Below, piece after piece: positions 5,694 to 36,812 of a stretch of DNA of 38,632 nt. Origin of the DNA: a virus; the IMG/VR virus record IMGVR_UViG_3300005590_000025, positions 1 through 38,632 of that record, one strand, 5' to 3'. Position numbers and translations under genes: made by a program. The first letter of the stretch is position 1. Each line of letters opens with the position of its first letter. Under the pieces are notes generated by a model. It was not told the origin of the DNA. It did no database searches and saw only the letters and a list, made by a program, of their open reading frames with translations.

Positions 5694-6748
5694 TGAGCAT
5701 AAATAGACTAATCGCCCTTGGTGGCAGGGGTGTTAAATCCCCTGTGGAACGCTATATCGACACTAAGGGGCAGATGGAGCGTGGCCGTCTAAGGAATGTG
5801 CAGGAGCAGGCTGGTTATCAGGGTATGGATCAAAACAGATTGGCAATGCAGGCAACCCAACAGGGTATGGATATCAGGGGTCAGCAACAGAAAGTAAAAG
5901 GACTTGCTGCTGTAGGTAAATATCTCGATCAATTTCCTGAAGAACAACGAGCTGCAGAATTCAGTAAAGTCGATATGAATCAGTTTGGCTTACCATCCGT
6001 TCCGGCAGATGCGACTTATGACAAGGTTAAACCAGCAATCGAGCAATCGAAATTGATGGTATATGGCGAAGGCGAAACGCCTACTAAGCGCACGATGCCT
6101 GCAGGAACAAATGAAAAAGGCCAGAATTTAGCGGTTGATCGGCTCTATCAGGGCAGTAGGGTAATTGAGCAATCTGCCCCTTACGTGAAGAAGGAAATCA
6201 CCAGAGAGGCGACAGTTGATGCTGGTGATTATGGCGGTAAAGTCAAGCCGATTAGTAATGCTGAACGTAAAAGCATGGCTCAGGAATTCGAGATAGCAAG
6301 ATTGATGCGCGATCTAAATACTGAATATAAGGATGAATATTCTGGTTTTATGTCAACAAACGTCGCAGAACTTGCATTAGCAGCAGGCAGGCGCGGCTTT
6401 GCATATGAAGATATGGAAGCATATATGACTAAATATCAGGACTGGAAAAATCAAGTTAGACATTCGTTTTTTGGTAGTCAATTAACCAGAAAAGAAATGA
6501 CTGAATTTGAGAAAACTACGATTAATCCTGCATTTACTGCCAAGCGCAACAAAGGCATTCTTAAAAGACATCAAGAGTTATATGATAGAGGTGTAAAGAG
6601 GGGGATTGGTATTCTTAAAAATACCAAGGGATGGACGGATGAAATGATTGATGAGATGACGCAGCTTTCTGATGAAGATGATGGATCTTCTACAGAGATG
6701 TCAGATGACGAATATCAACAGAGACTAAATCAAATACTGAACCCATGA
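5693..6748 (+). CDS. Ejection (internal virion) protein, P22 gp20-position
   Basis: A 351-residue, mostly helical protein, rich in Gln, Met, Arg and Lys in its first third (MERGRLRNVQEQAGYQGMDQ) and ending in an acidic tail (SDEDDGSSTEMSDDEYQQ). It is the middle gene of the three-gene ejection cassette and is coupled to both neighbours, by TAATG before and ATGA after. No membrane segment or catalytic motif can be seen. The role in DNA delivery is inferred from position only; in P22 the corresponding gene 20 product is 471 residues. Confidence 0.55.
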   Translation: MSINRLIALGGRGVKSPVERYIDTKGQMERGRLRNVQEQAGYQGMDQNRLAMQATQQGMDIRGQQQKVKGLAAVGKYLDQFPEEQRAAEFSKVDMNQFGLPSVPADATYDKVKPAIEQSKLMVYGEGETPTKRTMPAGTNEKGQNLAVDRLYQGSRVIEQSAPYVKKEITREATVDAGDYGGKVKPISNAERKSMAQEFEIARLMRDLNTEYKDEYSGFMSTNVAELALAAGRRGFAYEDMEAYMTKYQDWKNQVRHSFFGSQLTRKEMTEFEKTTINPAFTAKRNKGILKRHQELYDRGVKRGIGILKNTKGWTDEMIDEMTQLSDEDDGSSTEMSDDEYQQRLNQILNP

Positions 6749-8676
6749 GTGCAACACGCGAACAATTAGTGGAGCTTCTACGTGAAGCAGCCAGACGTGA
6801 TGATAAAGCTGTTGCGACTCAGCTTATGGGTAAGATTGAGTCAATGGATCAGCAAGAAGTTGGCAGTATTCCAGCAAACGAAGCTGTTGAAACACCAACC
6901 AGTCAGATAAAAGAGTCTGTTGCAGATAGCGGATTCTTGATGGGATTACAGGATCAGGCGGCTGGTCTAGCCCAATTAGCTGCACGTATTGCCCCAGACT
7001 CAAGAGCGCCTGAAGTTGTACTCGCCGGTATTCCAAAAACCGCAAAGCGGATTGATGATTACATCAATAAACAAGAACTGGACTATGAAAAAGGCCGTGA
7101 AAGCCGCGGTGAAACCGGCATCGACTGGGCAAGAATCGGCGGAAACTTCGCCAGCCCGATAAATGTTGCAACAATGGGTGTTCCCATCGGGGCAGCGACA
7201 ACGACTGGTCGTATAGCGGCGACAACGGTAATGGGGGCCGGTATGGGCGCAACCCAACCAGTAACCAGAGAAGGTGACTATTGGAGCGACAAAGCCCTTC
7301 AGGTCGCTGTAGGTGGTGGTACAGGTGCCGCAGCATCTGTTGTCTTGCCCGCTAGTATGTCTATGTTACGCAGAACAATAAGGGGTACTAAGGACTTAAA
7401 GCGATTCTTTACTCGACCCTTTACCGAGTCAGGCCGAATGGAAGACTTGACCAAGATGTATCAGAACCTTGCTGGAGAATCGAGAGACTGGCTGTATAAA
7501 GTTATGTCTAATCCCGACGAGGTTGCATCGGCTGGTAATTATACTTTTGGTCAGCAGGTAGCAAGAGCTAACAGATTGTCCGGTACTGCAAAAGGAAAAG
7601 CCTTTGTAAGACAGGAAATAGACCTTGCTAAAAAGCCTGTAACTGGCGATGAAATGCAGGGCAGATTAACCGAGCAGGCCGCAGGCAGAGCGCAGGCTGT
7701 TGACAATATATTAGATATTTCTGATGAAGGTTTGGAAAGGGCAATACAGAATAGAAAGTCAGCAACACAGCCACTGTATGAAAAAGTACGTGAATCAACA
7801 AAAAGGGTCGAGACAAGACCTACCATAGATTCAGTGCAGAAACTATTGAAAACACATAGCGCCGAAAGCAGGGCAACTGTTCCGCTAAACAAGATTATGA
7901 ATGAAATGCGCTGGCAGGGAGCAGATGGGAATATCTACCTAGAAACACGGACTGGCCCGTTATTCTCATTGCGCCAGGAAGTCAGGTCAATGATGAACAG
8001 AAAGACGCCCGGTGGCGATAATGAGTTTGATATTGCCATACTAGGACAAGTTAAAGACAAACTTGACGATGCCTTATCAAAGGCTGATCCAGACTTCAAA
8101 GAAGCAACAAAAATGTTCAAGGAGTTAAGTAAGCCTGTAAACAAGATAAAGACAATCCGATATATGGGTGATGCTCTAACTAACGCTATTGGTAACGATA
8201 CGCCTTCAACATTTGTGAATGCGATGAAGGACGCACCAAAAACGCTTAAACGCGCGACTGGATTCCCACGATTTAAGAACCTCAATCAAATACTTGATAG
8301 CAAAGAAATCGGCGTATTGAAACAAGTAGAAGAAGAATTACTTGATAATGCTGAATATAAGCGCCTTGGCGCAAAGACGACTTCAGTTTATAAAGAGATT
8401 GAGAAGGGGCTGAACGTATCTTTTGAGAACGCCCTGATAAGACCAATCATGGTGTTAAATGCAGTCATGCGTCGAATTGCCAAACACATGGGCGCGGATT
8501 ATGAAAAACTGGCAATTAAAGTTCACAATGATCCTGACTTAGTTGTAGAAATGATGAAAAGACCACCACAAGACAAAGAGCGGAAGATGTTGTGGGATAT
8601 GATTAACAGAACGCTTGCAATGATTCCAGCAAGAGAACAGGCCCGCGAAGGCACTCAGAATGAGCAGTTACAATAA
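6745..8676 (+). CDS. Ejection (internal virion) protein, P22 gp16-position
   Basis: A 643-residue protein, close to P22 gp16 (609). The N-terminus MSATREQLVELLREAARRDD is an amphipathic helix often seen in this group. Residues about 130-215 form an Ala/Gly/Thr/Val-rich stretch (VATMGVPIGAATTTGRIAAT, later AVGGGTGAAASVVLPASM) that could insert into the inner membrane. The remainder is long helical segments rich in Lys, Arg and Glu. It is the last gene of the ejection cassette. A lytic domain cannot be identified by eye. Assignment is by size, order and the membrane-compatible patch. Confidence 0.65.
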   Translation: MSATREQLVELLREAARRDDKAVATQLMGKIESMDQQEVGSIPANEAVETPTSQIKESVADSGFLMGLQDQAAGLAQLAARIAPDSRAPEVVLAGIPKTAKRIDDYINKQELDYEKGRESRGETGIDWARIGGNFASPINVATMGVPIGAATTTGRIAATTVMGAGMGATQPVTREGDYWSDKALQVAVGGGTGAAASVVLPASMSMLRRTIRGTKDLKRFFTRPFTESGRMEDLTKMYQNLAGESRDWLYKVMSNPDEVASAGNYTFGQQVARANRLSGTAKGKAFVRQEIDLAKKPVTGDEMQGRLTEQAAGRAQAVDNILDISDEGLERAIQNRKSATQPLYEKVRESTKRVETRPTIDSVQKLLKTHSAESRATVPLNKIMNEMRWQGADGNIYLETRTGPLFSLRQEVRSMMNRKTPGGDNEFDIAILGQVKDKLDDALSKADPDFKEATKMFKELSKPVNKIKTIRYMGDALTNAIGNDTPSTFVNAMKDAPKTLKRATGFPRFKNLNQILDSKEIGVLKQVEEELLDNAEYKRLGAKTTSVYKEIEKGLNVSFENALIRPIMVLNAVMRRIAKHMGADYEKLAIKVHNDPDLVVEMMKRPPQDKERKMLWDMINRTLAMIPAREQAREGTQNEQLQ

Positions 8677-16374: not shown

Positions 16375-16583
16375 TACTTTTCTCCTGTCTCGCAAAGGCT
16401 TTCATACTCGGCTATCGCCCTGTCTTCAGCTTCACGGCGGGTTCTAAGATTGTCAGTCTCATATTCAGCATCAAGAAAACGAAATAATCCATACCACATA
16501 CCAGAGTCATTAGGATGATAGACAAGCTGGATTACACCTATTCCGTAGTGCTCCAATAGTTTCTGCCTTCTTTCTTCAGTCAT
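16374..16583 (-). CDS. Hypothetical early protein
   Basis: A 69-residue protein, MTEERRQKLLEHYGIGVIQL..., mixed helix and strand with many charged residues. Its start overlaps the end of the first gene of the block. No family recognised. Confidence 0.5.
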   Translation of the reverse strand: MTEERRQKLLEHYGIGVIQLVYHPNDSGMWYGLFRFLDAEYETDNLRTRREAEDRAIAEYESLCETGEK

Positions 16584-16728
16584 CGTTCTGCTCCAGCTCT
16601 CGAATCTGACGCTCTATTTCCTCTTTCTGCTGAAAGAATACATCGTCTATTTCTATTTGAGCTTTCAATAAAGCATTCAGCTGTGCATTCAGTAGCAGTT
16701 TTTGTGTCACAAATTCTAGTTTATCCAT
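16576..16728 (-). CDS. Small coiled-coil protein, first gene of leftward block
   Basis: A 50-residue protein, MDKLEFVTQKLLLNAQLNAL..., probably a continuous amphipathic helix. GGAGATAGAG gives a good ribosome-binding site. It is the first full-size gene after the ~200-base leader. Function unknown. Confidence 0.5.
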   Translation of the reverse strand: MDKLEFVTQKLLLNAQLNALLKAQIEIDDVFFQQKEEIERQIRELEQNDD

Positions 16729-16935
16729 CTCTATCTCCAAGTTGTTGGGTGGTGAGGGCAGAAATTACTCTGCAAGAACCTTGTACATATCCGCCTAATA
16801 CGGGTGGCCACCTTTCGGCTTTTTAGTTACTTAGTCCACCATCGCTCGTTCTTCGCGGCGACCCGACGCCTCACCATAATCACATCCCTGTGCAATTGTC
16901 CTATTCAACTATCACCTCCGTTTGTTGTTGACTTG
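16729..16935 (-). ncRNA. Long structured leader of the leftward early block
   Basis: About 200 bases separate the leftward promoter (16942-16970) from the first full-size gene (16728). This segment is visibly richer in G and C than its surroundings. On the - strand GGTGAGG (16875-16869) can pair with CCTCACC close to 16752, closing a large domain. Inside it are GGTGG/CCACC, CAAG-GTT-CTTG and GCAGA/TCTGC hairpins. I do not recognise a known riboswitch class. It may be a leader RNA that controls early gene expression; no terminator with a T-run is obvious within it. Confidence 0.4.
16827..16877 (-). CDS. Putative 16-residue leader peptide with tandem Trp codons
   Basis: Within the leader an ATG with AGGG upstream opens MVRRRVAAKNERWWTK and then stops. 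Two adjacent TGG codons near the end recall attenuation leader peptides such as TrpL (which contains GWW). The peptide is strongly basic. It could be coincidental in a structured RNA, since the frame is short. Confidence 0.35.
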   Translation of the reverse strand: MVRRRVAAKNERWWTK

Positions 16936-16988: not shown

Positions 16989-17129
16989 ATGAAAAAAGAA
17001 CTGACTAAAGAGCAAAAGTACGCTAAGTCAATGAAAGATAAAGGGTATGTAAAGTTGTGCATCTGGATTGATCCTAATGACAAGGAATGGTTCAGTGGCT
17101 TAGGGGAGTTATCACGGAGAAAGAAATAA
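16989..17129 (+). CDS. Small basic protein, possible ribbon-helix-helix regulator
   Basis: A 46-residue product, MKKELTKEQKYAKSMKDKGY..., with GYVKLCIWIDPND followed by a helical segment. A short strand followed by helices, in a small basic protein placed first after a divergent promoter, resembles Arc/MetJ-type repressors (often xKxVxxWIPxxD). It may bind the operator between the two promoters. The RHH call is tentative. Confidence 0.45.
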   Translation: MKKELTKEQKYAKSMKDKGYVKLCIWIDPNDKEWFSGLGELSRRKK

Positions 17130-17224
17130 TGATTAGAGACTTGCTGCAGTTTTATTCACGCACCATCATTGCAATAACGATGTTCGTGTTTTTTATGGTA
17201 TTCGTTGTATGGAGGGGGAAATGA
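17129..17224 (+). CDS. Small membrane peptide
   Basis: A 31-residue ORF joined to the previous gene by TAATG. It is nearly all one membrane span (TIIAITMFVFFMVFVVW) and ends with an ATGA overlap to the next gene. Function unknown. Confidence 0.4.
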   Translation: MIRDLLQFYSRTIIAITMFVFFMVFVVWRGK

Positions 17225-17409
17225 GCTTACGTGAGGAAATAAAAGTAATCATTCATCAGTATAAATATACCTGCACTATTCCGAACGAAGACTTCGATGA
17301 AATCATCAACAAAGTCCTGGATGCTGCTGTTGAGGCAGTCAAAACATTAGATAGCTACGATGAGCCGATAATACTAGAGGCCATAAACCAGCTACGGGAG
17401 CAGAAATGA
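17221..17409 (+). CDS. Hypothetical early protein
   Basis: A 62-residue protein starting MSLREEIKVIIHQYKYTC. The ATG at 17221 has GGAGGGGG at ideal spacing; an in-frame ATG at 17209 has none. It is helical and acidic. It overlaps both neighbours by ATGA. Confidence 0.5.
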   Translation: MSLREEIKVIIHQYKYTCTIPNEDFDEIINKVLDAAVEAVKTLDSYDEPIILEAINQLREQK

Positions 17410-17582
17410 GCAGTTGTGCTACATGTAAATGGTTCAATCAACAAACAGAAGATCATGGTTATTGTGATTATCCTGTACCAGCATGGTTGATTCTTTCTGT
17501 TGGAGCGCCTGGTAGAGATGTGTCATTGATGCCAGCTAGATATGCACCTTGTGCTACTTATGAAGCGAGGGAGGAGAAATGA
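17406..17582 (+). CDS. Small zinc-type cysteine protein
   Basis: A 58-residue ORF, MSSCATCKWFNQQTEDHGYC..., with CATCKWF, GYCDYP and APCATYE. This four-Cys plan (CxxCxWF near the start, single Cys later) recurs in other small genes of this genome (24071 and 26053) and in many phages. It probably binds zinc; function unknown. Confidence 0.5.
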   Translation: MSSCATCKWFNQQTEDHGYCDYPVPAWLILSVGAPGRDVSLMPARYAPCATYEAREEK

Positions 17583-17779
17583 AAGATGATAAAGAGCTTA
17601 AAAAGCTAGACACACTAATTAAGGATTTCATTGAGTGTGCAATGTACAGACGGGTTGATCTTGGAAATCCGATTTACTTGGAAATATACCCGCAGCGAGC
17701 ACAATACCTTGCTGGATTACTTCAGGAACTAAGAACACTAAGATTAAAAAACCCCGACAGGGGCTTAGGGGATAGATAA
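17579..17779 (+). CDS. Hypothetical early protein
   Basis: A 66-residue helical protein, MKDDKELKKLDTLIKDFIEC..., with GGGAGGAG upstream. It overlaps the previous stop (ATGA), and the next gene starts at its stop (TAATG). No family recognised. Confidence 0.45.
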   Translation: MKDDKELKKLDTLIKDFIECAMYRRVDLGNPIYLEIYPQRAQYLAGLLQELRTLRLKNPDRGLGDR

Positions 17780-17994
17780 TGAGTGATAGTTATTGTAAAT
17801 ATGCGTTTGAGCATGAACCAGAGACAATCTGTGAGCATTGCGGCCTTGAGGTAGATAAATACGGGAATACAGAAGAAGACTTTGATAATTGCTGTTTCCC
17901 TGATTGTGGCTGTGATGGCGCGAGGAACTGTAGTGCTAAAAGTGAGCCGCATTCTGGTGCAGTAGCATTAAACAGAGAAAGGGGGCAATCATGA
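17779..17994 (+). CDS. Cysteine-rich hypothetical protein
   Basis: A 71-residue protein with CEHCGLEVD, NCCFPDCGCDGARNC and several acidic residues. The number and spacing of cysteines suggest one or two metal sites. It overlaps the next gene by ATGA. Confidence 0.5.
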   Translation: MSDSYCKYAFEHEPETICEHCGLEVDKYGNTEEDFDNCCFPDCGCDGARNCSAKSEPHSGAVALNRERGQS

Positions 17995-18326
17995 AAAAGC
18001 CCCAAATTAATGAGGCTTCGTCACTTGCAGATCGGGGAGAAATGCAATATATTTGTCAGTGTTCAGATGACTATCAATATTATCCTTTCTTTATATTCCA
18101 TAGTCAAGAGCCGGAAGTCTGTCCGAGAACAGATAGCTGCGGTTGTTCTGTAGAGAAAAGCAAATCTACAGGCTGGCAAGGAAAACCAGTTACCCCGACC
18201 GGAACCAACTCGACACTACAGCGAGCGTTCATAAACTACGGCGATAAACAGCACTGTACGGCATGGAGCCTTCTAGCGGGGTGTTTACTTCGTCCTAAAG
18301 AAAGTAAAAAAGAGGTTCTTCAATGA
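17991..18326 (+). CDS. Cysteine-containing hypothetical protein
   Basis: A 111-residue protein, MKKPQINEASSLADRGEMQY..., with scattered Cys (YICQCSDD, VCPRTDSCGC, AGCLL). It could be metal binding. No homologue recognised. It ends with ATGA coupling to the next gene. Confidence 0.45.
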   Translation: MKKPQINEASSLADRGEMQYICQCSDDYQYYPFFIFHSQEPEVCPRTDSCGCSVEKSKSTGWQGKPVTPTGTNSTLQRAFINYGDKQHCTAWSLLAGCLLRPKESKKEVLQ

Positions 18327-29309: not shown

Positions 29310-29771
29310 ATGAGTGATAAGAAGGTGACAAAGCTCGGCAGATTGCCAGATGGAGCACTTGACAGCTATTACATTGAAGAATACCTGGAAGCTCCGGCCA
29401 AGAAGTCAGAAGCATACCTAAAAGCCTATGATCGCTATTGTAATGACTGCAAGACCCAAGGCATCGAAGCGTACAACGTAAATAGGGACTATGCTCGACA
29501 GTACGCCAAGTCTATCCACGACAGACTAAGGGACAGGATTAATACAGAGCTATACAAGCTTGCAGACGATGACAAGGCACTAGGACGAAGGGTATTAAGA
29601 GAACTCGCCAACAAGGCAGAGTCAGAAAGCGTAAAGGCCCAATGTGCTAGTAACCTCGCTAAAGGATTGTATCCAGAACATATAGTAACCAAGTCAGAAA
29701 CAATAGAAGATATCGACAGAGAGCTTAAACAGTTAGAGCAAGATATCAATCAATCAATAGGACTACATTAG
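29310..29771 (+). CDS. terS: Terminase small subunit
   Basis: A 153-residue protein close in size to P22 gp3 (162). Its helical N-terminal part (YYIEEYLEAPAKKSEAYLKA) and following region resemble small-terminase DNA-recognition domains. It then has a helical oligomerisation section and a C-terminal coiled stretch (IEDIDRELKQLEQDINQSIG). It lies before the large terminase, portal and scaffold genes, although separated by about 1.4 kb. A pac site is often inside this gene in headful phages, but I cannot point to it. Confidence 0.65.
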   Translation: MSDKKVTKLGRLPDGALDSYYIEEYLEAPAKKSEAYLKAYDRYCNDCKTQGIEAYNVNRDYARQYAKSIHDRLRDRINTELYKLADDDKALGRRVLRELANKAESESVKAQCASNLAKGLYPEHIVTKSETIEDIDRELKQLEQDINQSIGLH

Positions 29772-30156: not shown

Positions 30157-30228
30157 GTGGCCTAAGCATTGCTGGTGATGTCCGGTATGTGACACCGGGG
30201 GAAGCGGGTTCGAATCTCGCAGGCCACC
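30157..30228 (+). tRNA. tRNA-His(GUG)-like element
   Basis: A cloverleaf can be drawn. The acceptor GTGGCCT/AGGCCAC is 7 perfect pairs. The D-arm is GCAT/ATGT with GG in the loop. The anticodon arm CCGGT-ATGTGAC-ACCGG has anticodon GTG. The T-arm is GCGGG-TTCGAAT-CTCGC. Oddities: position 8 is A rather than T, position 14 is T rather than A, base 26 is missing, the residue before the acceptor is T instead of the G-1 that bacterial tRNA-His needs, and CCA is not encoded. It may be a functional but divergent tRNA, a tRNA-like element, or a remnant. Confidence 0.6.
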
Positions 30229-30230
30229 CC

Positions 30231-30239: not shown

Positions 30240-30274
30240 TCACGAGAGTGATTTTTCCAACCAGGAGAGATGAG

Positions 30275-30514
30275 ATGAAAAGACGTAATTTTATAAAAGG
30301 TTTACTAGGGGTTGCTGCTGTTCCAGTAGTTGCAAAGTTAAGCGCAATGAGTTCTTACGATTACACCCCAAGAATAATAGCTAAAGAGGCACTGGCTCAA
30401 TATAAGGAGCCTATCCTTTTAACCCCTGAAGAAGTCACCAGAGAAGCATTGAAGATGCTTGAGCATAATATGGAGAAGAATATCTTTTTTAAGGGAAATA
30501 AATTGCTTAGATGA
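30275..30514 (+). CDS. Twin-arginine signal protein with coat-arm-like motifs
   Basis: A 79-residue protein. The ATG at 30275 follows AGGAGA at proper spacing. MKRRNFIKGLLGVAAVPVVA is a Tat signal (RRNFIK, then a mildly hydrophobic segment). After it come two tandem elements, TPRIIAKEAL (31-40) and LTPEEVTREALKMLEHNM (49-66). Both resemble the start of this phage's own coat protein, LTPDIITKEALTILHNN (9-25); the first has 8 of 10 identical residues to coat 10-19. The tail is basic. It opens the late operon and overlaps the next gene by ATGA. Function unknown. Confidence 0.6.
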   Translation: MKRRNFIKGLLGVAAVPVVAKLSAMSSYDYTPRIIAKEALAQYKEPILLTPEEVTREALKMLEHNMEKNIFFKGNKLLR

Positions 30515-31239
30515 ACAAGCTAACCGACCTAAGCGATCCAGCGTACAAGATGAGTGCGCCGAGTCGTGATCCACGTAATGTAACGGGATATTACCAGTGG
30601 GCCAATACGCCGGTAGCTCAAAGGGGTTGGACTGGAAGGAATGTTCATCGTGGTGTTACTGATGTTGAGCCGATGCCTGAATATGAAAGGGCTATGGAGC
30701 ATCCTCTTATGAGAAAGGGATTTAAACCACAATACGATGTCTACGTTCCGCCCAATTACGATCCGTTGAATATGGGTGCTAGGACGAGGATGTGGGGTGC
30801 TACCTTACCTTCGGGAAGTAACTGGCGTGAGATGACCGAACGTACTTCTGGTATGGATGAGAAGGCGGCTAAGGCTTTATATAAATATTTGAGTGAAGGA
30901 GAGATGTCGGATGAGGATCGTTCTAATCTCAAGTATTCAGATCAGACGGCTTACTTTAATCAGGCGGTGCAAAGTCAAAACAGACCTCAGACGGTAGGTC
31001 ATGAAGGAACTCATCGAGCTATTTATGAGTTAGCGGATAATGTTTGGGGGCCGGGTTATATTGATAATAAAACGAATATGTTGATGACGAGAGTAATGGA
31101 TTATAAATATGGAAATAAAGCCGCAAGAAAGTCTGCAGTTGAGTGGATCAAGGGTCTTTCTCCAGATAAAACTTTAGAGGGTGGGGTTAAGTATGCCATG
31201 CCTTTAATTGAAGAACTCGTCCAATCCATCAATGACTGA
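30511..31239 (+). CDS. Putative zinc metalloprotease-like protein (HEGTH)
   Basis: A 242-residue protein with H164-E-G-T-H168 in the helix-like context TVGHEGTHRAIYELADNVWG, the HEXXH signature of gluzincin/metzincin-type peptidases. A third ligand is not obvious, though acidic residues follow at a fitting distance. The N-terminal ~110 residues are Pro/Tyr-rich without a signal peptide. It sits between the Tat-signal gene and the large terminase gene, where P22-type phages normally have no gene. It could process a virion protein, act in the host envelope or act in lysis; this is inference. Confidence 0.5.
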   Translation: MNKLTDLSDPAYKMSAPSRDPRNVTGYYQWANTPVAQRGWTGRNVHRGVTDVEPMPEYERAMEHPLMRKGFKPQYDVYVPPNYDPLNMGARTRMWGATLPSGSNWREMTERTSGMDEKAAKALYKYLSEGEMSDEDRSNLKYSDQTAYFNQAVQSQNRPQTVGHEGTHRAIYELADNVWGPGYIDNKTNMLMTRVMDYKYGNKAARKSAVEWIKGLSPDKTLEGGVKYAMPLIEELVQSIND

Positions 31240-32761
31240 TCCCAAGGCAAGAAAGCTTGAGTTACTGAGAAAGAAACAAAGTTTAATCAAGTTCAATAAA
31301 TTAAAGTATTACGATCCCTATCCGTTCCAGGTTGAATTCCACAACGATGAGGATAAGAGGAAGGGATTAAGGGCAGGGAATCAGATTGGAAAAACCATCT
31401 GTGGTACGGTTCAAGATGCTTTTGACTTAACGGGTCTTTATCCTGACTGGTACAAAGGTCATAGATTTGAAAAGCCAGTAAATATCGTTTGTGGTTCGAT
31501 TAACAACGACAAGACAAGAGATTTACTTCAAAAAGCCCTCTGTGGTGATCCTGTCGATAAATTTAATACTTTGGGGACGGGGTGGTTGCCAAAGAACTGT
31601 CTCGACAAGAATAAAATCTCGTTAAAAAGAGGTGTTACAGACGCCTTCACCCATATAAAAGTAAAACACCATACCAATGGTGTATTTGATGGCTGGTCTA
31701 ATCTAAGTTTTTCCTCGTATGAGAGTGGAAAAGAGGCATGGATGGGCGATACCGTTGATGTTTATCATGGTGACGAAGAACCCCCAATGGACATATTGGG
31801 TCAGATGGGTCGTGGCTGTATCGCCTCCAAAGGCTTTATTAGACTGACGTGGACGCCGGAGAACGGACGTACTGATGTTGTAATAAAGGTTGAGAATGAA
31901 TGGAGTTTACACACCGCTGAGTGGAAGGACGCCTCTGGTGAAGACTTTACTTATGAATTTGAAGATGGTGAGTCTATAGAATTTGACAAGGTAGAGACTT
32001 TATTTGGCAAAACCGGTCATATCACCCGGGAAACCATAACCCAGGCGGAAAAGGACAATCTGCCCTATATGATGAAGATGCGGATGAAAGGTATCCCTGT
32101 CATGGGAACCGGACTTGTCTTCACCCATCAAGAGCAAAAGTACAAAACTGATCCTATTCCAATCCCCGATCATTGGCCGAGGTTAGACGCGATAGATTTT
32201 GGTGGACTTTCATCGACTTCACATCCGACTGCTTTCGTAAGACTAGCCCACGACCTTGAGACAGATACGATTTATATCTATGACGGTTTTAGAGTAATAG
32301 GAAAAGAAATCCCCGAAGTTGCTGCTCAGATCGTAATGAAACCCCATACTCATTTAGTGCCGGTTGAATGGCCTCACGACGGTAATAAAACCTTGGGACA
32401 GGGTGGTACGACTAAGGAACAGTATATGTCTGCGGGAGTGAATATGTTGAGAAATCACTTTACTAATCCCCCTGAAGAATACAAAGAAGAGGGTACGGGT
32501 GGAATTCAGATCCTTCCCGGCGTTACCGAGATGTCCGCTAGGATGAATGATGGTCGTTTAAAGGTATTTTCAACGGTATTGGATTTTTTCGATGAGGTCA
32601 GGAACTATCACATGAAAGATGGAAAGATTGTTGATAGAGAAGATGACTTCATGGCCGCCAGCCGCGTGGGTGTGATGGGTATCCGCCATGCCATTCCGGT
32701 TAATTACGAACCCGTCACCCTTAATCATAATAACGAAAATGTAGGCTTTATGTGGTCATGA
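31232..32761 (+). CDS. terL: Terminase large subunit
   Basis: A 509-residue protein from the ATG at 31232, which overlaps the previous stop. Walker A is GNQIGKT (49-55) in the context GLRAGNQIGKTICG. Walker B is VDVYHGDEE with D181-E182-E183. The C-terminal nuclease has an acidic start, DAIDFGG (D322), and a late DDFMAASR element. This motor-nuclease packages DNA into procapsids; the P22-like portal, coat and tail genes suggest headful packaging. An in-frame upstream TTG (31208) is less likely as start. Confidence 0.9.
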   Translation: MTDPKARKLELLRKKQSLIKFNKLKYYDPYPFQVEFHNDEDKRKGLRAGNQIGKTICGTVQDAFDLTGLYPDWYKGHRFEKPVNIVCGSINNDKTRDLLQKALCGDPVDKFNTLGTGWLPKNCLDKNKISLKRGVTDAFTHIKVKHHTNGVFDGWSNLSFSSYESGKEAWMGDTVDVYHGDEEPPMDILGQMGRGCIASKGFIRLTWTPENGRTDVVIKVENEWSLHTAEWKDASGEDFTYEFEDGESIEFDKVETLFGKTGHITRETITQAEKDNLPYMMKMRMKGIPVMGTGLVFTHQEQKYKTDPIPIPDHWPRLDAIDFGGLSSTSHPTAFVRLAHDLETDTIYIYDGFRVIGKEIPEVAAQIVMKPHTHLVPVEWPHDGNKTLGQGGTTKEQYMSAGVNMLRNHFTNPPEEYKEEGTGGIQILPGVTEMSARMNDGRLKVFSTVLDFFDEVRNYHMKDGKIVDREDDFMAASRVGVMGIRHAIPVNYEPVTLNHNNENVGFMWS

Positions 32762-35552: not shown

Positions 35553-36812
35553 ATGGCTACAGCAACAAATAGTGCGTTAACCCCCGACATTATCACGAAA
35601 GAGGCGTTAACGATTCTTCATAATAACATTGTGTTTTGTCGCAATGTAAACCGTCAGTATGACAACTCCAATACTTTGGGTGGTCAGAAAAACAGCGGTG
35701 CTATCCGTATTCGCTTACCTAACAAGTACGTTACCAATACAGGTGCAGCACTTGCTACGGGTGACACGATTGATACCGTTGAGCAGGCCGTAACTTTGAC
35801 AGTGGGTACTCAGCGTCACGTTGACACCTCGTTCCTCACCGAAGAGCTGACCAATGACATTGATACGTTCTCTGAACGAATCCTTGCGCCTGGTATTTCG
35901 GTTCTTGCCTCAATGTTCGATTATGACATGATGGCAATGGCCTATGCAGGTGTTGGTAATTCGGTGGGTACACAAGGCACTACTCCGGCAACGGCTAAGG
36001 TCTTACTGGATGCTCACAAGAAGATGAGCCATGCAGCTACACCAATGAGTCAACGCTACGCTACTGTTGACCCAAATGCGAATGCGGGTCTTGTCGATGG
36101 CCTGAAAGGACTGTTCAATGCTCAGAGCTTGATTGCCGAGAACTATCGTTCTGGACTGATGGCTGATAACCAGCTCGGTTTCAGGGAACTTGCAATGAGT
36201 CAGTCAGTTCCGGTGCATACCAATGGTACACGTCTGGATACTGATACTTTTGCAGTTGATGGCGATACCATTGCAACTCCGTCTGCCGGTGCCCAGTCTA
36301 TCGTCGTTGATGGTGTAAACGGTACAGAAACAATCACTGCGGGTGAGGTATTCACCATTGCTGGTTGTTACGCTTGTAATCCAGAGACTAAACAGTCAAC
36401 GGGTGAGCTTTATCAGTTCGTTGTGTTAAATGACGAAACCGCCGCTGGTAATCAGTGGACTATTGATATCGCCAATCCGATCTATGCTGCTGATGCAGAA
36501 GGTCTGCAGAACGTAGTGGGTGCAACCTACGCTGCTGCTGTTGTTGATGGCTCTACTGTTACCTTCGTGGGTACTGCAAGCGGAACAGGGCCGCAAAGCC
36601 TTGCCTACCATAAGGACTCTTTCGTAGTTGGCACAACCGACCTCGAAATGCCTAATGGTGTTCACTTTGCTTCTCGTCAGGTACTAGATGGTATCTCAAT
36701 GCGTATTGTTCGTCAGTATCGAATAGATTCTGATGACATCCCATGTCGTATTGACCTGCTGTACGGTGGAGTTGTAGCTCGTGGCGAAACCGCTTGCCGG
36801 ATATGGGGGTAA
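35553..36812 (+). CDS. Major coat protein, P22-like
   Basis: A 419-residue protein (P22 gp5 is 430), with AAGGAGG upstream. It starts MATATNSALTPDIITKEALT, then ILHNNIVFCRNVNRQYDN, the characteristic N-terminal arm of P22-type HK97-fold coat proteins. The central insertion region is beta-rich with DGVNGTETITAGEVFTIAG, as in the I-domain-containing group. The C-terminal part (DIPCRIDLLYGGVVARGETA) also matches the family. It lies directly after the scaffold gene and is followed by a small beta protein and a terminator. Confidence 0.92.
   Translation: MATATNSALTPDIITKEALTILHNNIVFCRNVNRQYDNSNTLGGQKNSGAIRIRLPNKYVTNTGAALATGDTIDTVEQAVTLTVGTQRHVDTSFLTEELTNDIDTFSERILAPGISVLASMFDYDMMAMAYAGVGNSVGTQGTTPATAKVLLDAHKKMSHAATPMSQRYATVDPNANAGLVDGLKGLFNAQSLIAENYRSGLMADNQLGFRELAMSQSVPVHTNGTRLDTDTFAVDGDTIATPSAGAQSIVVDGVNGTETITAGEVFTIAGCYACNPETKQSTGELYQFVVLNDETAAGNQWTIDIANPIYAADAEGLQNVVGATYAAAVVDGSTVTFVGTASGTGPQSLAYHKDSFVVGTTDLEMPNGVHFASRQVLDGISMRIVRQYRIDSDDIPCRIDLLYGGVVARGETACRIWG

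Follow-up and report, generated by a model that had tools for sequence, protein, structure and literature searches.

The cytoplasm is where phage coat proteins assemble, and we know of no reason for fusing pieces of a coat protein to an export signal. The viral DNA analyzed here (positions 1 to 38,632 of IMG/VR record IMGVR_UViG_3300005590_000025, hereafter the window, 38,632 nucleotides in length) appears to encode such a fusion, raising the question of what this gene product is and what it might do for the phage.

The window gene and its relation to the coat protein

The gene (30275..30514, + strand) has a Shine-Dalgarno-like AGGAGA at 30263..30268, 6 nt 5′ of the ATG, and encodes a protein of 79 residues, MKRRNFIKGLLGVAAVPVVAKLSAMSSYDYTPRIIAKEALAQYKEPILLTPEEVTREALKMLEHNMEKNIFFKGNKLLR. 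A simple scan for promoters near the gene gave nothing above chance. The N terminus reads MKRRNFIK-GLLGVAAVPVVA, in which a twin-arginine motif precedes a hydrophobic stretch as in Tat substrates, and residues 1 to 24, MKRRNFIKGLLGVAAVPVVAKLSA (30275..30346), constitute the predicted Tat-type signal. The twin-arginine signal noticed earlier in the sequence was recovered by the Pfam TAT_signal model (PF10518) with an E value of 3e-4, the score of 21.0 bits being just under the cut-off of 22.7. Behind the signal lie two coat N-arm copies. The first of them, copy 1 (residues 25 to 44, 30347..30406) includes TPRIIAKEAL at residues 31 to 40 (30365-30394) and was aligned by a coat-family HMM to coat positions 5-24, while copy 2 (residues 47 to 66, LTPEEVTREALKMLEHNM, 30413..30472) includes TPEEVTREAL at residues 50 to 59 (30422-30451) and was aligned to coat positions 8-27.

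The major coat protein of the window (35553..36812, +) is of the P22 type (Pfam PF11651, E value of 2.6e-33; PHROG major head protein, E value of 8.5e-61) and contains TPDIITKEAL at 35580-35609. The sequence-only reading had located all three motifs exactly and had correctly counted 8 of 10 matching positions for copy 1 and 6 of 10 for copy 2. Once extended, copy 2 matches the coat arm better than copy 1, pairwise BLAST aligning it with the coat segment LTPDIITKEALTILHNNI (35577..35630, +) over 18 residues, 9 of them identical, with an E value of 3e-4. The observed score was equaled by 0 of 2000 shuffles for either half of the window protein. When the protein was searched by BLAST against all ORFs of its own record, the coat match had an E value of 0.015, which is moderate for a single pair. 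At the DNA level, either arm copy agrees with the other, and with the coat, at just 18 to 19 of 30 bases, indicating that the duplication is not recent. A BLAST search of the mature window protein against all ORFs of all loci placed a Tat-signal coat fragment from L164 (the phage of L107) on top and coat N-arms next.

The window protein received no name from Pfam or PHROGs and had no PF11651 match in Pfam, where the best of its siblings, from G006, reached 17.8 bits against a curated cut-off of 24. Rather than the full HK97-fold domain set (N-arm, P, E-loop, A, and I), the window protein has the N-arm alone, twice, and its siblings have N-arm and/or P-domain pieces. Both hallmarks of the family described below, homology to coat segments in coat order and a Tat-type signal in front of them, are present. 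The AlphaFold model was confident for the second arm only, as a helix spanning residues 51 to 78 (confident over 51 to 70). The database search that had been proposed for the 79-residue protein found only 100% identical copies in viral_contigs (two contigs) and no relatives in 50,697 annotated phages. We conclude that the window protein is very probably a partial, dwarf paralogue of the major coat protein of the phage placed behind a Tat signal, in this case with two N-arms in tandem.

The gene had been taken to be the first of the late operon, but a terS-like ORF (29310..29771, +) and a tRNA-His gene (gtg; 30157..30230, +; ARAGORN) precede it. Its stop codon overlaps, as ATGA, with the start of a 242-aa ORF (30511..31239, +) which has a HEGTH motif and no Pfam or PHROG match, and the terminase large subunit gene, terL, lies beyond (31208..32761, +; PHROG terminase, E value of 1.4e-16). 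The Tat gene, the tRNA-His gene, and the 242-aa ORF together occupy the interval between terS and terL. The dwarf gene is absent from L087 (terL 68% identical), where the counterpart of the terS-like ORF directly abuts terL, and also from L006 (coat 84% identical) and L008 (coat 64% identical), indicating that it is an accessory insertion.

Recurrence and retained coat segments

Tat-signal ORFs with coat segments are present in at least eight more uncultured phages, most of which have a P22-type coat available for comparison. Scanning viral_contigs for Tat starts with [ILV]x[KR]EAL behind them yielded small Tat ORFs in L094, L096, L098, L104, L106/L107, L109, and L110/L111, loci that are evidence of recurrence and not of frequency because the pattern itself requires the motif. 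Wherever the coat was available, each Tat ORF was compared by BLAST with all ORFs of its own record; the contigs of L110/L111 stop short of the coat gene. With self matches and other Tat signals excluded, the major capsid protein was the top match in the window, L094, L096, G006, G007, L107, G010, and G001. The Tat ORF of G006 (the record of L098) was 50% identical to its own capsid protein over 54 residues (E value of 1.5e-12), that of L094 was identical at 23 of 56 residues (2.5e-9), and those of L096 and L107 had E values of 9.7e-7 and 0.017, respectively. In G007 the Tat ORF contained two coat segments (0.002 and 0.011), and G010 has two Tat ORFs, one matching the coat N-arm (7.5e-4) and the other the coat C terminus (5.5e-4). 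L218 was found to have an array between portal and scaffold, comprising three Tat ORFs (190, 92, and 92 aa) and, without a leader, a dwarf of 147 aa (7277-7720), with a ribosome site on each.

A coat HMM was built from 67 dereplicated coats and used to search 26,242 ORFs drawn from about 220 viral loci. The non-coat matches below an E value of 0.05 were nine Tat-signal ORFs, including that of the window (0.0063), and three dwarfs or fragments that have no leader, with siblings of the window protein reaching 1e-14 and 2e-15. Since the family recurs, and since the best match in the reversed-sequence control had an E value of 3.0 compared with 0.0063, the match between the window protein and the coat is not attributed to chance. 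Some coat similarities were individually weak, namely those of L107 (HMM, 0.17), L218 6722 (0.33), L218 7277 (0.69), L135/G007 (HMM, 6.2; own-record BLAST, 0.011 and 0.002), and L005 3377 (own-record BLAST, 0.09), and that of L134 1747 was not significant.

Frequency was estimated from loci fetched solely through coat similarity, non-redundant and with at least 6 kb upstream of the coat (n = 45). Tat dwarfs were present in 4 of the 45 (the window type, G006, G009, and L218), and L216 has a leaderless dwarf. Tat-like starts overall were seen on about 1% of ORFs in the viral loci, most of them spurious. The 11 annotated P22-coat phages contained no coat-like Tat ORF, and a pattern scan of 84,980 genomes in genome_contigs produced 15 matches, with 0 dwarf coats upon inspection. 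When the sibling dwarfs were used as queries against annotated phages, coat genes alone were matched, and the L096 dwarf matched nothing. Dwarf coat paralogues are therefore patchy in distribution.

The retained segments vary. In addition to the two N-arms of the window, the dwarfs of G006, L094, and L110/L111 cover coat HMM positions 4-60, 4-55, and 16-58, respectively, whereas the 190-aa dwarf of L218 covers 5-36, 88-120, and 352-390, the L216 dwarf covers 5-31, 65-116, and 343-386, and the second ORF of G010 covers 55-115 and 347-386. Some dwarfs thus consist of the N-arm and first strand, and others have the spine helix or C-terminal strands. The segments are in coat order in every case, which favors descent by internal deletion over convergence. 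The earlier suggestion of a duplicated coat-gene fragment that had gained a Tat signal is well supported by this order and by recurrence in the other phages. With the domain limits of the P22 coat (PMC9965877), the dwarfs keep mainly the N-arm and P-domain (spine helix and C-terminal strands). Compared with P22-type coats (PF11651; Sf6 gp5, P22 gp5), they are therefore similar in having the N-arm and, in others of the set, the first strand, spine helix, and C-terminal strands, but they are 79 to 190 aa long instead of about 420, lack the A-domain and most of the I-domain, and have an added Tat signal. In L216, the leaderless dwarf (6385-6795, 137 aa) has the N-arm, spine helix, and C-terminal strands, and next to it lies a small ORF (6798-7001) that encodes a C-terminal segment of the coat.

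AlphaFold, supplied with an alignment that included coats, was confident of an N-arm helix, a spine helix, and three strands in the 190-aa dwarf of L218 (pTM 0.61). VIA-align of this model placed the P22 procapsid coat on top (Z of 8.5 over 120 residues, 4.3 Å), with another P22 shell next and then encapsulins, CUS-3, and Sf6, all of the HK97 fold; because coats were part of the alignment behind the model, this result is not independent of the sequence match. Foldseek against the PDB returned nothing significant for it. The L218 protein is modelled as a coat N-arm plus P-domain.

A special likeness of the window protein to its own coat, as first proposed, was not observed, because 28 of 66 other coats score equal to or better than its own. 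Across the set of eight phages, the dwarfs fit their own coats over exchanged coats, with 19 of 40,320 permutations doing as well. This tracking may reflect duplications that occurred repeatedly in individual lineages, or a single old family passed down together with the coat.

Possible functions of the dwarf proteins

Repeated Tat-coat fusions involving different segments, in one case as a tandem array, point to a selected and, as far as we could find, undescribed function. Tentatively, and aware that it may well prove wrong, we favor a decoy that captures the partners of the coat arm and is moved to or across the membrane by Tat. In the cytoplasm, the helical N-arms of the dwarf would bind whatever binds the coat N-arm, the likeliest partner being a coat-sensing factor of the host. 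Targeting to the Tat pathway would hold the complex of dwarf and partner at the membrane or export it, as in known Tat hitchhiker export, and late coat synthesis would thereby go unnoticed or unhindered. Major capsid protein directly activates an immune protein of bacteria (PMC9712102), and the Tat pathway can export a partner that has no leader when it is bound to a protein with a Tat signal (PMC4273604); on these grounds the decoy is preferred, with control of assembly close behind. CapRel-type immunity is triggered by coat protein sensed in the cytoplasm, so that a decoy of the coat could be useful, although CapRel is a host sensor, the dwarf is encoded by the phage, and the present analysis found no sensor. 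Tat hitchhiker systems such as PaoABC of E. coli likewise have an RRxFxK signal with a hydrophobic stretch and carry a signal-less bound partner, whereas the dwarf is phage-encoded and very small, its cargo domain is a viral structural fragment, and its export is predicted. The patchy presence of the dwarf genes (4 of 45 loci, and absence from L006, L008, and L087) fits a gene engaged in an arms race better than a core assembly factor.

Several observations count against the decoy. The dwarf genes lie in the head/terminase region, making late expression probable, and because different dwarfs copy different coat segments, no single epitope accounts for all of them. Dwarfs free of a Tat signal also occur (L216; L218 7277-7720), and export of the window protein is a prediction from a signal whose Pfam score is just below the cut-off. 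We know of no coat-sensing defense in any host of the dwarf-carrying phages, nor are we aware of a published decoy of this type. If the decoy explanation is true, it predicts undiscovered coat-sensing defenses in these hosts and provides a handle for finding them.

Assembly control, a new kind of head-assembly factor if true, is a slightly less probable explanation than the decoy. Here the dwarf N-arm would bind the phage's own scaffold or coat subunits and delay or cap head assembly, with the Tat signal parking it at the membrane or later clearing it. In P22 procapsids the scaffold contacts the N-arm helix of the coat, its R293 and K296 docking at coat residues D14, E15, and E18 (PMC9965877), and an N-arm mimic could therefore bind scaffold. 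The N-arm and P-domain kept in the dwarfs take part in scaffold and subunit contacts, and the second arm of the window protein was modelled as a helix, both consistent with such a role. However, close relatives should keep such a factor, and the gene is missing even from L006, with its 84% identical coat, as well as from L008 and L087; P22-type phages assemble without it, and the role needs no Tat signal. Interference with competitors, in which a trans-dominant coat fragment poisons or removes the related coat of co-infecting phages or satellites, appears improbable. The fragments do span assembly interfaces, and the indifference of the window copy to its own coat (28 of 66) would be expected for a foreign target, but the tracking of own coats by the dwarf set (19 of 40,320) implies a risk of self-harm, and the position of the gene in the late region also argues against it. 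Fv1 and enJSRV Gag are capsid-derived restriction proteins of animals that likewise interfere with capsids; being host-encoded, retroviral, and not exported, they are an analogy only.

Equally improbable, in our estimate, is that the dwarfs are by-products, that is, decaying and functionless partial duplicates of the coat whose Tat-like starts arose by chance or through one ancestral fusion. They are short and divergent, signal-less forms such as that of L216 occur, and the window arm copies agree with one another and with the coat at only 18 to 19 of 30 bases. Against this, Tat-type starts are found on at least 10 dwarf ORFs compared with about 1% of ORFs, with the proviso that many of these loci were fetched with the Tat pattern, and the dwarf genes have ribosome sites and overlapping start and stop codons. 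The dwarf gene of L106/L107 (354 nt), unchanged despite 64 differences over 6.9 kb, argues weakly in the same direction. A meaningless resemblance, with TPxx[IV]x[KR]EAL no more than a common helix start, would suit the unremarkable single-pair E value of 0.015 against all record ORFs. It is contradicted by the family, with its independent recurrence, its ordered coat segments, the 50% identity over 54 residues in G006, and the HMM result with its reversed control, and we consider it very unlikely.

T4 gp24 is a capsid paralogue that stays in the virion and is full length, unsignalled, and structural; it resembles the dwarfs as a second, diverged copy of the coat gene within one phage, but the dwarfs are partial and most are Tat-signalled. 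A search of the open-access literature for Tat-signalled phage capsid proteins found none. As far as we could find, dwarf coat proteins with a Tat signal are a class not previously described.

Other capsid types and gene arrangements

A check proposed earlier was whether Tat-signal neighbors of terL always share the motif with the coat, which is not the case: two Tat ORFs of L004 (10001-10315 and 10414-10926) and one of L005 (8591-9073), all small and in or near head genes, have no coat similarity. Conversely, the Tat ORF of G001 (the record of L003 and L136; L003 2968-3306) matched its own capsid protein, which is of a different type, over 49 residues at 39% identity (E value of 1.9e-5). The phenomenon may thus extend beyond P22-type coats, although this single case is insufficient to establish it, and a search for more L003-type capsid loci gave five loci with no new Tat ORF. 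The broader proposition, that in uncultured P22-coat phages, and possibly in those with other capsid types, a class of Tat-exported dwarf capsid proteins captures a cytoplasmic coat-sensing factor and removes it by hitchhiker export, is more speculative still and, on present evidence, doubtful. The same L003 Tat ORF has a FIDxxHHEVH motif (FIDFPHHEVHAA) in common with the product of another gene, located close to the head genes.

Individual loci also exhibited unusual arrangements. In L096, the Tat dwarf (2085-2354, − strand) lies between portal and scaffold, runs in the opposite orientation to the head genes, and overlaps the end of the portal gene. On the reverse strand of L107 near 7030 (and of L106 at 3566), terL is in two ORFs with the break exactly at the Tat dwarf gene; the order in L107 is ...LYFLPDGEIPK and a stop, the dwarf gene, and VSKAVIMAGWDDVPHLS..., and in L109 terL is intact across the same point. 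None of the 64 sites that differ between L106 and L107 over 6.9 kb is within the 354-nt dwarf gene. In L228 (MW202674), the coat gene itself is present as two ORFs (16569-16871 and 17089-18084), each annotated as "P22 coat protein."
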